A stretch of DNA of 64,000 bases from Hymenobacter sp. (GTDB lineage Bacteria > Bacteroidota > Bacteroidia > Cytophagales > Hymenobacteraceae): positions 1-64,000 of the forward strand of contig JANXNW010000281.1 in NCBI GenBank assembly GCA_025353905.1. The letters are read 5' to 3'. The position numbers were made by a program, and so were the translations under genes. Positions 16,576 through 20,805 of this stretch are shown one piece after another. The notes under the pieces are model-generated. The model did not search any database. It was not told the DNA's origin and saw nothing but the letters and a program-made list of their open reading frames with translations. The first letter of the stretch is position 1. The number at the start of each line of letters is the position of its first letter.

Positions 16576-18069
16576 TCAGCTCAGCACTGGCCGCCGGTGC
16601 CGCCAAGGGCGGGCTTGCTCCAGCTGCCCGGCCAGCCGAAACAGCACGTCTTCGGCCCCGAGCGGAGCGATGAATTGTACGCCGCAGGGCAGGCCGTCGG
16701 CGGTCCAGTGCAGGGGCACCGACATGGCGGGCTGCCCGGTGAGGTTGGCGAGCTGGGTGTAGGGCGTTTTTTCAAGGCTTTGCTCGGCCAGCTTATCCAC
16801 GAGGCCCGAGCGGCGGACGAAGCCGCCGAGGCTAAAGGTGTTCACGATTTTGAGCAGCGTTTGCTCGCTGGGTTTGGGTTGCAGCTCGCCCACGCGCACC
16901 GGCGGCGCGGCCAGGGTGGGGGTCAGCAGCAGGTCGTGGGTGAGGTGGAAGCGGCCCATTTGGCGGGCAAAGTCATTCCAGGCGTGGCGGGCGGCGGCAA
17001 AATCGGCGGCCGAATACGTGCGGCCCAGCAGGCCCAGCAGCCAGGTAGTGGGCTCCACGTCGGCGGGCCGGGCGGGGCGGCCCAGGTGCCGGGCCAGGTC
17101 GGCGATGCTGGCCCCGGTTTCGCCAAAATACAGCATCAGAAAAGACTGCGCCACGGCCCGGCCATCAAAGGGCAGCGGCACTTCCTCGACCTCGTGGCCC
17201 AGGCTTTCGAGTAGCTGGGCCGCATCGCGCACGGCCGTGGCGCATTCCGGGTGCAGGGCCGAGCCGAGCGGGTGGCCCAGGCTGAAGGCCACGCGCAGCA
17301 GGCCGGGCTCGCGGCCAACTTCCTCCAGATACGGCCGAGCGGGAGCGGGCAAAAAGTAGGGCGCGCCGGGGTCGGGGCCGAGGGTAGCATCGAGGGCGGC
17401 GGCCGAGTCGCGCACCGAGCGGGTGAGCACGTGCTCGACGGCCGCGCCCTGCCACTTCTCGCCCTGTTCGGGGCCGGTGGGCACCCGCCCGCGGCTGGGT
17501 TTCAGCCCAAACAGCCCGCAGCAGGCGGCCGGAATGCGGATGGAGCCGCCGCCGTCGCCGGCCCCGGCCAGCGGCACGATGCCCGCCGCGACGGCCGCCG
17601 CCGCCCCGCCGCTGCTGCCGCCGGGCGTGTGGGCCAGGCTCCAGGGGTTGCGGCAGGCACCGAACAGCACCGGCTCGGTTACGCCCAGCAGAGCAAACTC
17701 GGGGGTGTTGGTTTTGCCCAGGATGTTGAGGCCCGCCGCCTGCCAGCGCCGCACCAGCTCGGCATCCTCCCCCGGCACGAAACCGCGCAGCGCCCGGCTG
17801 CCCGAAGCCTGCGGCGCGCCGGCATAAAAGGCGCCGAAATCCTTCAGCAAGAATGGCACCCCGCCGAATGGTCCCGGCGGCAGCCCGGCCGCTGCCCGCG
17901 CGCGGGCCGGCTCGTAGAGCGGCGTAACGATGGCGTTGATAAGCGGATTGACGGCTTCGGCGCGGGCCACGGCGGCGGCGCACAGCTCGGCGGCCGTGAG
18001 CTGGCCGCTGCGCACGAGCGCGGCCTGAGCGAGGCCGTCGAGCTGGTCGTATTCAGAAGGGGAAAGCAT
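16576..18069 (-). CDS. Amidase
   Basis: GGSSGGAAAAVAAGIVPLAGAGDGGGSIRIPAACCGLFGLKPSRGRVP signature; start at MLSPSEY. Confidence 0.93.
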   Translation of the reverse strand: MLSPSEYDQLDGLAQAALVRSGQLTAAELCAAAVARAEAVNPLINAIVTPLYEPARARAAAGLPPGPFGGVPFLLKDFGAFYAGAPQASGSRALRGFVPGEDAELVRRWQAAGLNILGKTNTPEFALLGVTEPVLFGACRNPWSLAHTPGGSSGGAAAAVAAGIVPLAGAGDGGGSIRIPAACCGLFGLKPSRGRVPTGPEQGEKWQGAAVEHVLTRSVRDSAAALDATLGPDPGAPYFLPAPARPYLEEVGREPGLLRVAFSLGHPLGSALHPECATAVRDAAQLLESLGHEVEEVPLPFDGRAVAQSFLMLYFGETGASIADLARHLGRPARPADVEPTTWLLGLLGRTYSAADFAAARHAWNDFARQMGRFHLTHDLLLTPTLAAPPVRVGELQPKPSEQTLLKIVNTFSLGGFVRRSGLVDKLAEQSLEKTPYTQLANLTGQPAMSVPLHWTADGLPCGVQFIAPLGAEDVLFRLAGQLEQARPWRHRRPVLS

Positions 18070-18229
18070 GGGCGCAAGGTAGCTCGGTGGCAACTGGCCC
18101 ACTCGCTACCTTCGGACTCGTTTTCTTTCGATTTCGGTTCACAAAATCATCCCGTCACCGTGGCCGCTACTGCCGTTCTGTGGGCGGCGCATTCATCGTA
18201 GCAGTGGCTCGAACTGAACTACAACTTTT

Positions 18230-18706
18230 TTGTTGCACTTTTGCCCACCCGTTTACGTTTTGGCTTTTCGTCGTTCACCACCCACTCTACCCGAAGTCGA
18301 GGGTTTTCTCCGGCGTTTACACGCCTTCATGGGTGTTGAGAAGCCATTTATTCTCATAAAAGACCGGGTGGAGAACAAGCAAGGTTTACTTGATTTGAAA
18401 CTTGATAGAGACCCAAGCCAACGCATTTCGTACATAGCGGCGCTCCGGCCAACGTATGCTTGTCAGTTGTTGCAATCCGACGATGCGGAAGAAGCAGCCG
18501 CTGGTCGTCATCTGTGGGTGTTCGGCATTTTGGTAGGCAAAGCGAGCAAGACTCAGCGTCCAGCCTACGTAAAAATTCAACTGGGCCAAACTGTTGCCGA
18601 CCCCATTTGCCTCTCGTTCCACGTCGCGCGCTTCCCCCTCACTTTCCTGTTTCCTTCCCCATACGCCGTCGCGTTCAAAACAGCTTTTGAAGCTTACCAT
18701 GCGTAG
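18230..18706 (+). CDS. Putative MqsR-like toxin of a TAC cassette
   Basis: LPEVEGFLRRLHAFMGVEKPFILIKDRVENKQGLLDL...HLWVFGILV...AYVKIQLGQTVADPICLSFHVARFPLTF resembles remembered Bacteroidota MqsR-like toxins; overlaps the next gene by 8 nt. Start uncertain. Confidence 0.55.
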   Translation: MLHFCPPVYVLAFRRSPPTLPEVEGFLRRLHAFMGVEKPFILIKDRVENKQGLLDLKLDRDPSQRISYIAALRPTYACQLLQSDDAEEAAAGRHLWVFGILVGKASKTQRPAYVKIQLGQTVADPICLSFHVARFPLTFLFPSPYAVAFKTAFEAYHA

Positions 18707-19295
18707 TCCAAACACCGGTAGTCCCATGCGTCTCGTGGAGAATGAACCCGCCCCCTACACGCTGCGCGGTGAAGAATTCGCCGTAGGTGGCCCCACGTGG
18801 GAGTGTCCCGACACGGGCGAGCGTTACCTGAGTCCTGAGCAAGTGGATGAGTTTTTTCGCCTCGTCCATGCCGCTTGGCGTGCGCGTCACGGCATCGGCA
18901 AAGACGCGCTCAGGCAGCGGCGCAAGGCCTTGGGCCTGTCAGCGGCGCAATCCTCAGCCCTGTTGGGGTTTGGCGTGAATCAATACCGAACTTACGAAAA
19001 CACCGACAAGCTACCCAGCAAGTCAAACGCCGTACTACTGAAACTGTGGCTCGACGACGACGCACTGGCCGCGCTGCTGGAGGCGGCCGAAGGGACGCTC
19101 ACTAAGGTAACCCGAGGTAAGCTGGGGGCCTACCTCGCTCAGTTGGCTATACCTTCGATTCCGTTAAGGGCCATACCGACTAGCGACGCGTTAGGAGCCG
19201 ACTGGTCGGGTGGCGCTACCGCTGTGCCCGCTGCGCCAACCGACTACAAAGCCACGCTTTCTGCCGAGGAATATTCCTACGCAATGGCTGCCTAG
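18699..19295 (+). CDS. Putative MqsA-like HTH antitoxin with C-terminal extension
   Basis: TWECPDTGERYLSPEQVDEFFRLVHAAWRARHGI then HTH LRQRRKALGLSAAQSSALLGFGVNQYRTYENTDKLPSKSNAVLLKLW. Confidence 0.72.
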   Translation: MRSPNTGSPMRLVENEPAPYTLRGEEFAVGGPTWECPDTGERYLSPEQVDEFFRLVHAAWRARHGIGKDALRQRRKALGLSAAQSSALLGFGVNQYRTYENTDKLPSKSNAVLLKLWLDDDALAALLEAAEGTLTKVTRGKLGAYLAQLAIPSIPLRAIPTSDALGADWSGGATAVPAAPTDYKATLSAEEYSYAMAA

Positions 19296-19298
19296 CTT

Positions 19299-19841
19299 AT
19301 GAATGCTCCCCTCAATTTGGCCCACATTCACCCGGAGGGTTTCGCCGTCACCGAGTTTGATGTGAAGGGCTCGCGGACGCTGGCCGCCGTGCTGGCTGAA
19401 CGCCCGCAAGCCACCCTTGACCTGAGCCAGCACGCGCAGGTGCAGTTCAACGCGGCCAGTAACAAGGTGGTAGTGGCGTTGCATATTATTACGCAGGTGC
19501 AGGAGGCCGGTACCCTGATTTACAAGGCACCCAGTGGCCGGTTTGAGTTGCATTTTCACTTTTTGGTGGAAAAACTATCTGACTTGGTAATCCCCGCAAC
19601 CGAGACAGCTGCTCCTAATTTACCCTCGCAGCTTTTGCTTACCCTGACGGGGTTGGCCTACTCCACCGCCCGCGGCTTGCTTTGGGCGCGGCTGCCCGGC
19701 ACGGCGCTAGAAGGCGTTACGCTGCCCGTCATTGACCCCCGCCAGTTGTTTGAATTCGGTCCCAGCGATACAGCCCCTGCCGTTCAAGCGCTCACTGACT
19801 CGCCGCTCAAGGCGCGCAAGCCACGCGCTCGAAAAAGTTAG
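19299..19841 (+). CDS. Putative SecB-like chaperone of a TAC cassette
   Basis: LTGLAYSTARGLLWARLPGTALEGVTLPVIDPRQLF resembles the C-terminal SecB helix; starts 3 nt after antitoxin stop. Confidence 0.55.
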   Translation: MNAPLNLAHIHPEGFAVTEFDVKGSRTLAAVLAERPQATLDLSQHAQVQFNAASNKVVVALHIITQVQEAGTLIYKAPSGRFELHFHFLVEKLSDLVIPATETAAPNLPSQLLLTLTGLAYSTARGLLWARLPGTALEGVTLPVIDPRQLFEFGPSDTAPAVQALTDSPLKARKPRARKS

Positions 19842-19902
19842 CGCCCTCTTGTTCGTGGCGTTTACCCGTCCGCATCGCTATAAAATTCCACTAACATCTC
19901 TC

Positions 19903-20793
19903 TTACAATCGCACTTCCGCCACCACGGCCGTGCTGCCGCCCGCGTCGTCGTCCGTAACCAGCAGTAGCTCATACCAGCCGGCCCCTAATTGCTGGCGTA
20001 TGGCCAACCCCTCGACCTTGCCCAGGTACGCCCGGCCGTCGGGCCAGGTGAGGCGCGTCAGCTCCGCCTGACCGGTGGTCAGGTCCACTTGCCCGACGTA
20101 GGAGCCGAGCACGGGGCCGTCGAGCACGGCATCGGCAGTGGCCTCGACGGAGGCCGTTACCAGCAGCTGATTATCCATTATTTGCGCACCCGAAAAGCCG
20201 GCCGCGTAGCCGTCCAGCGTGGGCAAGGCCACGGGCAGCGCCCGCGTGAGCGCCGGCACCGGCTGGGCCGGCTGCCAGAGGTAAGCTGCCACGTCAGCCA
20301 GATTCAACCCAAACACCACGGCCGGCCCGCCGCCCACCGGCCGCTGCAACAGCAGCAGCTCGGTGGCGCCAGTGGCGGCAGCTTCGAGGTTGAGCACGGT
20401 CCCGGCCGGCAGCGCGGCGCGGAGCTGGGCGTAAAGCGCGGCCAGATTGATGGTTTGAACGGGTTGCCCCGGCGTGAGCGGCACAAAATACCCTACCTCG
20501 CGCACCGGCCGTGCCCCGGAGCCGAGCAGCAGCAGGCCCAGCGCGCCGTCGGGGCCGGGCAGCAGCGTCATTGCTTCGAGGTCGGGCTTGAGAGCCTTCG
20601 GGATGCGGCCGGTGGTGAAATCGGTAGGGTCGAAAAGCGGCACCTGGCCCGCCGGGGCCAGGGTTTGCGCGTCGAGCAGGTAGAGAAAGGGCGCGTCGTC
20701 GCTCACCACGTAGGCCATGGGGCCCACGATTTCGATGCCCGATGCGGAAGGCAGGTTGGGCAAGGAGGTTTCGGAGTGGAGGTGGATAAGCAT
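19903..20793 (-). CDS. Beta-propeller/phytase-like protein, possibly DUF6929
   Basis: ASGIEIVGPMAYVVSDDAPFLYLLD...KPDLEAMTLLP...GKVEGLAI. Confidence 0.5.
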   Translation of the reverse strand: MLIHLHSETSLPNLPSASGIEIVGPMAYVVSDDAPFLYLLDAQTLAPAGQVPLFDPTDFTTGRIPKALKPDLEAMTLLPGPDGALGLLLLGSGARPVREVGYFVPLTPGQPVQTINLAALYAQLRAALPAGTVLNLEAAATGATELLLLQRPVGGGPAVVFGLNLADVAAYLWQPAQPVPALTRALPVALPTLDGYAAGFSGAQIMDNQLLVTASVEATADAVLDGPVLGSYVGQVDLTTGQAELTRLTWPDGRAYLGKVEGLAIRQQLGAGWYELLLVTDDDAGGSTAVVAEVRL

Positions 20794-20805
20794 AAGCGCC
20801 CCAAC

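Follow-up and report, generated by a model that had tools for sequence, protein, structure and literature searches.

Between an amidase-like gene and a DUF6929 gene of the window (the whole 64,000-nucleotide stretch of Hymenobacter sp. DNA that was analysed), three genes (ORF1, ORF2 and ORF3) form a compact plus-strand unit at 18260-19841. The question raised by this unit is whether it is a toxin-antitoxin-chaperone (TAC) operon and, if so, how its toxin would be held in check and released. The original prediction read it as an MqsR-like toxin, an MqsA-like antitoxin with a helix-turn-helix (HTH) domain and a SecB-like chaperone. The gene layout was present as described: the first two genes overlap by 8 nt (ATGCGTAG, 18699-18706), the third follows after a gap of 3 nt, and minus-strand genes lie on both sides (Table 1). 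The start of ORF1 was corrected. Position 18230, given earlier, falls inside a conserved palindrome and is probably 30 nt too early; ORF1 probably begins at TTG 18260, because an in-frame TTG is found at the same place in the cassettes of H. elongatus (L002) and of genome G003 (L005).

Table 1. Features of the three-gene unit and its flanks in the window.
Feature	Position	Strand	Basis
Toxin gene, MqsR-like, 148 aa	18260..18706	+	TTG start common to L002 and L005; family hhalign to MqsR; AlphaFold2 pLDDT 87
Antitoxin gene, MqsA-like with HTH, 198 aa	18699..19295	+	PF15731, TIGR03830, PDB MqsA with family profile
Antitoxin C-terminal tail, putative ChAD role	19047..19292	+	In place of the Panacea domain of relatives; role by analogy with PMC5105189
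EYSYAMAA, candidate ClpXP degron	19269..19292	+	Equals last eight residues of host tmRNA tag (ARAGORN); DNA comparison; rarity
SecB-like chaperone gene, 180 aa	19299..19841	+	PADLOC PDC-M64C, AlphaFold2 model, Foldseek SecB
Candidate operator CAACTTTTTTGTTG, presumably antitoxin-bound	18222..18235	.	Upstream motif enrichment; single copy in window
Amidase-like gene, upstream flank	16576-18102	-	Neighbour of the cassette
DUF6929 gene, downstream flank	19903-20793	-	Neighbour of the cassette

ORF3 matched the PADLOC model PDC-M64C with an E-value of 6e-20. Its AlphaFold2 model, built from 25 related proteins, had a mean pLDDT of 81.5 and comprised four strands and a long helix, with a fold core at about residues 14-152 followed by a low-confidence basic tail. 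All 17 PDB matches of this model with E <= 0.001 in Foldseek were SecB: H. influenzae SecB ranked first (1fx3, 1.2e-5), M. tuberculosis Rv1957 with the HigA1 ChAD peptide second (5mtw, 2.4e-5), and E. coli SecB was also among the best (1qyn, 3.0e-5). The predicted structure thus bore out the SecB assignment, and the name SecB-like is given to ORF3 by its modelled fold. At E-values up to 1, Pfam SecB (PF02556) matched neither ORF3 nor any of 24 relatives, and neither ORF1 nor ORF3, searched against PDB sequences singly or as family profiles, gave a useful match.

A search of 39 relatives for canonical SecB (PF02556) came back empty, and TAC chaperones can take over the export function of E. coli SecB (PMC5105189); ORF3 might then be an export chaperone of a genus without canonical SecB, standing as an operonic bystander behind an ordinary MqsRA-type pair. 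We consider this improbable. A SecB-like protein of the ORF3 type occurs in only 15 of the 120 genus genomes and is therefore not the export chaperone of the genus; nearly every case read among those 15 has its gene behind a two-gene toxin-antitoxin-like pair, and the end of the antitoxin tail resembles a protease signal. PDC-M64C proteins of the Bacteroidota genomes searched were also usually encoded behind such a pair.

The MqsA-like assignment of ORF2 held in three profile searches. Residues 1-116 of the 198 matched MqsA (PF15731) with a score of 31.3 against a cut-off of 30 (E 2.5e-7), TIGR03830 was matched with 62.1 against 61.8 (E 4e-17), and the family profile of ORF2 found E. coli MqsA structures in the PDB at 4e-10. 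The zinc ligands were lost: in place of the CxxC/CxxC pairs of MqsA, SPxT and CxxT were present in all relatives aligned, and in relatives with a Panacea domain the zinc-ligand positions were likewise replaced by Thr or Ser. Because these pairs are replaced, ORF2 is probably an MqsA-like protein without zinc and is therefore termed MqsA-like. The protein extends past the MqsA match as a tail, which varies between cassettes.

ORF1 alone matched no family in the Pfam, NCBIfam, PADLOC and PDB sequence searches; the Pfam MqsR cut-off of 26.2 was reached neither by ORF1, which gave no match, nor by the relative L004 (19.9). Through the profile-profile comparison (hhalign), a 40-member toxin family profile reached the canonical MqsR profile, itself tied to PDB 3hi2 at 4e-23, with an E-value of 1.9e-6 and a probability of 89.6, against 0.39 for an unrelated negative control; the four TAC toxins alone failed to reach MqsR (0.021, probability 2). 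PF15723 (MqsR) was weakly matched by 32 of the 40 toxin relatives, at best with 4.5e-5. Judged from these profiles, ORF1 is a distant MqsR relative, and the predicted label is kept as MqsR-like, although Foldseek found no significant PDB match for its confident AlphaFold2 model (pLDDT 87).

The MqsR toxicity residues are K56, Q68, Y81 and K96 (PMC2791442). Only Y81 has a counterpart in the family of ORF1 (Y103 in ORF1), K56, Q68 and K96 not being kept, and an invariant His lies near the place of K96 in an alignment read by eye. Residues invariant in the toxin family include R36, N39, Y103, K105 and H121, and all of them are kept in the toxins of the window and L002. These two toxins have no GP motif, which is nearly invariant in their relatives, and both have an insertion as well as a C-terminal extension; because the motif is missing, their specificity may have changed. 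We infer that ORF1 is a toxic MqsR-like RNase. The same departures from the family, together with the toxin of G003 (L005 1295-1675), which is broken near a run of C by a frameshift that may be a real mutation or a sequencing error and is accompanied by open antitoxin and chaperone frames, could instead mean that the toxin has degenerated or lost its RNase activity and that the cassette persists as a regulator or a remnant. The chance of this appears slight, as synonymous sites are saturated between the window and L002 toxins (pS 0.79) with pN at 0.26, and every family-invariant residue is in place.

Toxin relatives were gathered from named genomes, 398 genomes of the phylum and viral contigs. 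The trio was found in the same order in five of the 120 genus genomes (those of the window, G001 (H. elongatus), G003, G456 and G465), so that the neighbours are conserved together; given this common order and the excess of pS over pN in the toxin, the trio is more than a chance arrangement. The viral contig L109 was not counted as an independent case, its length and cassette being the same as those of contig C92 of G465, and the plasmid search gave one weak toxin match.

A short antitoxin and a SecB-like protein accompany the toxin relatives at Hymenobacter loci only. At about 60 loci outside the genus, in Bacteroidota and Chlorobi (a few sampled twice), the partner, wherever the contig carries an intact next gene, is an MqsA-Panacea/SocA fusion antitoxin of about 330 residues in total with no chaperone after it; that of L004 matched PF13274 at E 7e-19. 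As far as the sequences tell, an unrelated tail and a SecB-like protein stand in the Hymenobacter TACs where the relatives have Panacea. Pairs of MqsR and PanA are known; in the one dissected, neutralisation comes from the zinc-binding domain and not from Panacea, for which the same authors suggest, so far without proof, the role of a sensor (PMC10440598). One toxin family with two alternative control parts agrees with this suggestion.

The tail of ORF2 ends in SAEEYSYAMAA, and its last eight residues, EYSYAMAA, are identical to the end of the genome's own tmRNA tag (GEYSYAMAA, ARAGORN). When YAMAA followed by a stop was searched in the 120 genus genomes, nearly every genome contained one tmRNA-type site, and ORF2 was the addition; of the remaining matches, a few read TGG in place of the stop, and the one in G459 was rejected as a second tag-bearing gene, there being no plausible gene that ends there. 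Full identity was found in one of the five homologous cassettes, which might indicate an accident of a small-residue tail unrelated to turnover. This seems to us very improbable: eight residues agree at the very C-terminus; the four differing bases among the 24 of the two coding sequences are all synonymous and include a Ser switch between AGC and TCC, a pattern that speaks for constraint on the peptide rather than for recent copying of the DNA; and the only other plausible gene ending in MAA among about 7,500 frames (L121) also encodes a TAC antitoxin. Ends in Ala-Ala were counted in 9 of 33 TAC antitoxins, none of 63 Panacea antitoxins and 2% of background frames, these being related and not independent sequences.

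Because the other cassettes do not have it, the tag identity is, on this comparison, a property of the window's copy and not of the family. That TAC antitoxins in general copy the tag of their own host was not borne out, as the others share at most Ala-Ala, MAA or EYSY. Two HigA-type TAC antitoxins of the genus have part of EYSYAMAA in their ends: L124 (G457) ends in DEYSYSEVG and L121 (G510) in EEESLLMAA.

Antitoxins of known TACs carry a chaperone-binding C-terminal extension (ChAD), a precedent for the tail of ORF2 (PMC5105189). The M. tuberculosis HigA1 has a Val-Ala ClpX degron within this extension (PMC8165232), and the end LAA of CmdA is a ClpXP signal (PMC11618068). The EYSYAMAA end of ORF2 is a strong candidate for a ClpXP degron, and as a whole copy of the tag it exceeds these known degrons; in the open-licence literature we found no earlier report of an antitoxin with a whole tmRNA-tag copy.

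Upstream of the toxin genes, the palindrome CAAC-N6-GTTG was found in 25 of 50 cases, against a dinucleotide-shuffle mean of 0.07. It precedes the toxin at all five TAC loci compared, as CAACTTTTTYGTTG or CAACTTTTTAGTTG, and at Panacea loci it mostly reads CAACTTTATAGTTG; the 64 kb window contains a single copy, even allowing one mismatch. The motif is likely an autoregulatory operator, and since both kinds of loci have it, the HTH domains of the two antitoxin types may well bind a common operator. A sigma-70 promoter scan was negative, the sigma-70 model being uninformative for Bacteroidota.

The cassette has a GC content of 57.6% against 65.4% for the window, and GC3 was 0.52 in the toxin gene against 0.80-0.85 in the neighbours, which fits a later acquisition. 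In the window, the interval between the amidase gene and an ABC-F gene (18103-20805) holds the TAC and the DUF6929 gene; this ABC-F gene is 97% identical to that of another Hymenobacter genome, in keeping with the placement of the window in the genus of H. elongatus. Elsewhere (loci L154, L170, L160, L162 and L168) the amidase and ABC-F genes lie about 110-155 bp apart with nothing between them in several genomes and are separated by a Fic-like gene (recognized by eye) in two, but in G005 and other near relatives they stand at distant places. Given this wide separation in near relatives, the case for a clean empty site is weak; the interval may be an insertion hotspot for toxin-type cargo. In G031, a HigBA-type TAC lies behind the same ABC-F gene (L211). 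Long inverted repeats resembling REP elements (GTCATGCTGAGC / GTCATCCTGAGC) were also seen in intergenic Hymenobacter DNA (L002 3110-3210, L160 1370-1470).

The homologous cassette of G465 (L109 / contig C92) has phage endolysin/holin genes on one side and other phage-like genes on the other, and at least this one copy is therefore likely to be cargo of a prophage; that of G456 (L212) adjoins a type I restriction locus. Cassettes of the same chaperone family at L125 (G465), L010 and L008 adjoin type I restriction genes (HsdR or HsdS), as in defence islands. A possible role in phage defence is suggested by analogy with CmdTAC and by these positions of the two homologues, one beside restriction genes and the other in a phage lysis region.

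Taken as a whole, we consider it quite probable that the unit is a TAC operon with an MqsR-like toxin, a zinc-less MqsA-type repressor and a chaperone-shielded tail that unites a binding site with a ClpXP degron. Under this TAC reading, the antitoxin would repress the operon through CAAC-N6-GTTG, and its C-terminal extension would be the binding site of the SecB-like chaperone; the last eight residues, as a copy of the host SsrA tag, would direct unprotected antitoxin to ClpXP. With the chaperone on the tail, the antitoxin would be stable and the toxin off. If unfolded protein or, as in CmdTAC, a structural protein of a phage drew the chaperone away, the tail would be exposed, the antitoxin degraded and the toxin freed. 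The toxicity, the binding of and dependence on the chaperone, the degradation by ClpXP and the trigger in this scheme are modelled on precedents. We give a fairly low probability to a further extension, in which the SsrA-like tail competes with tmRNA-tagged proteins for ClpXP and Panacea and tail-plus-SecB are interchangeable sensors. Cutting of mRNA by the toxin would then produce non-stop messages and more tmRNA tagging, and the loaded ClpXP would spare new antitoxin, a brake tied to ribosome rescue.

The MqsRA-SecB TAC of Vibrio cholerae RC385 (Bordes et al. 2016, PMC5105189) likewise has an MqsR-type toxin, an extended MqsA-type antitoxin and a SecB-like chaperone in one operon, and its chaperone dependence has been demonstrated. 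The window differs from it in a toxin only distantly related to MqsR, an antitoxin without zinc-ligand pairs whose end copies the host tmRNA tag, and a chaperone of the Bacteroidota PDC-M64C group. M. tuberculosis HigB1-HigA1-SecB(TA) (Rv1955-1957) shares the chaperone fold, and the tail of HigA1 combines a chaperone site with a ClpX degron, as proposed for ORF2 (PMC8165232); the pair is HigBA there and MqsRA-like here, and the degron is Val-Ala there and a full tag copy here. CmdTAC of E. coli ECOR22 has the same toxin-antitoxin-SecB-like layout, with an antitoxin ending in the ClpXP signal LAA, the chaperone as sensor and the capsid as trigger (PMC11618068), whereas the toxin of the window is MqsR-like and its cassette is known from sequence. 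With MqsR:PanA (PMC10440598, PMC8832971), the PanA-bearing relatives of the window toxin share the MqsA N-terminus and probably the operator, the Panacea domain there corresponding to tail and chaperone here. ORF3 matches component C of PADLOC PDC-M64, a candidate phage defence, but PADLOC has no model that fits ORF1 or ORF2.

Beyond the original prediction, the analysis added the Panacea swap, the C-terminus resembling the tmRNA tag and the operator. With what looks like the cell's full destruction tag on ORF2, the degradation step in the release of a TAC toxin becomes open to a direct test. Nature has in effect done a swap experiment on the idea that Panacea is a sensor (PMC10440598), by placing one toxin family under MqsA-Panacea in one clade and under an MqsA tail with SecB in another.
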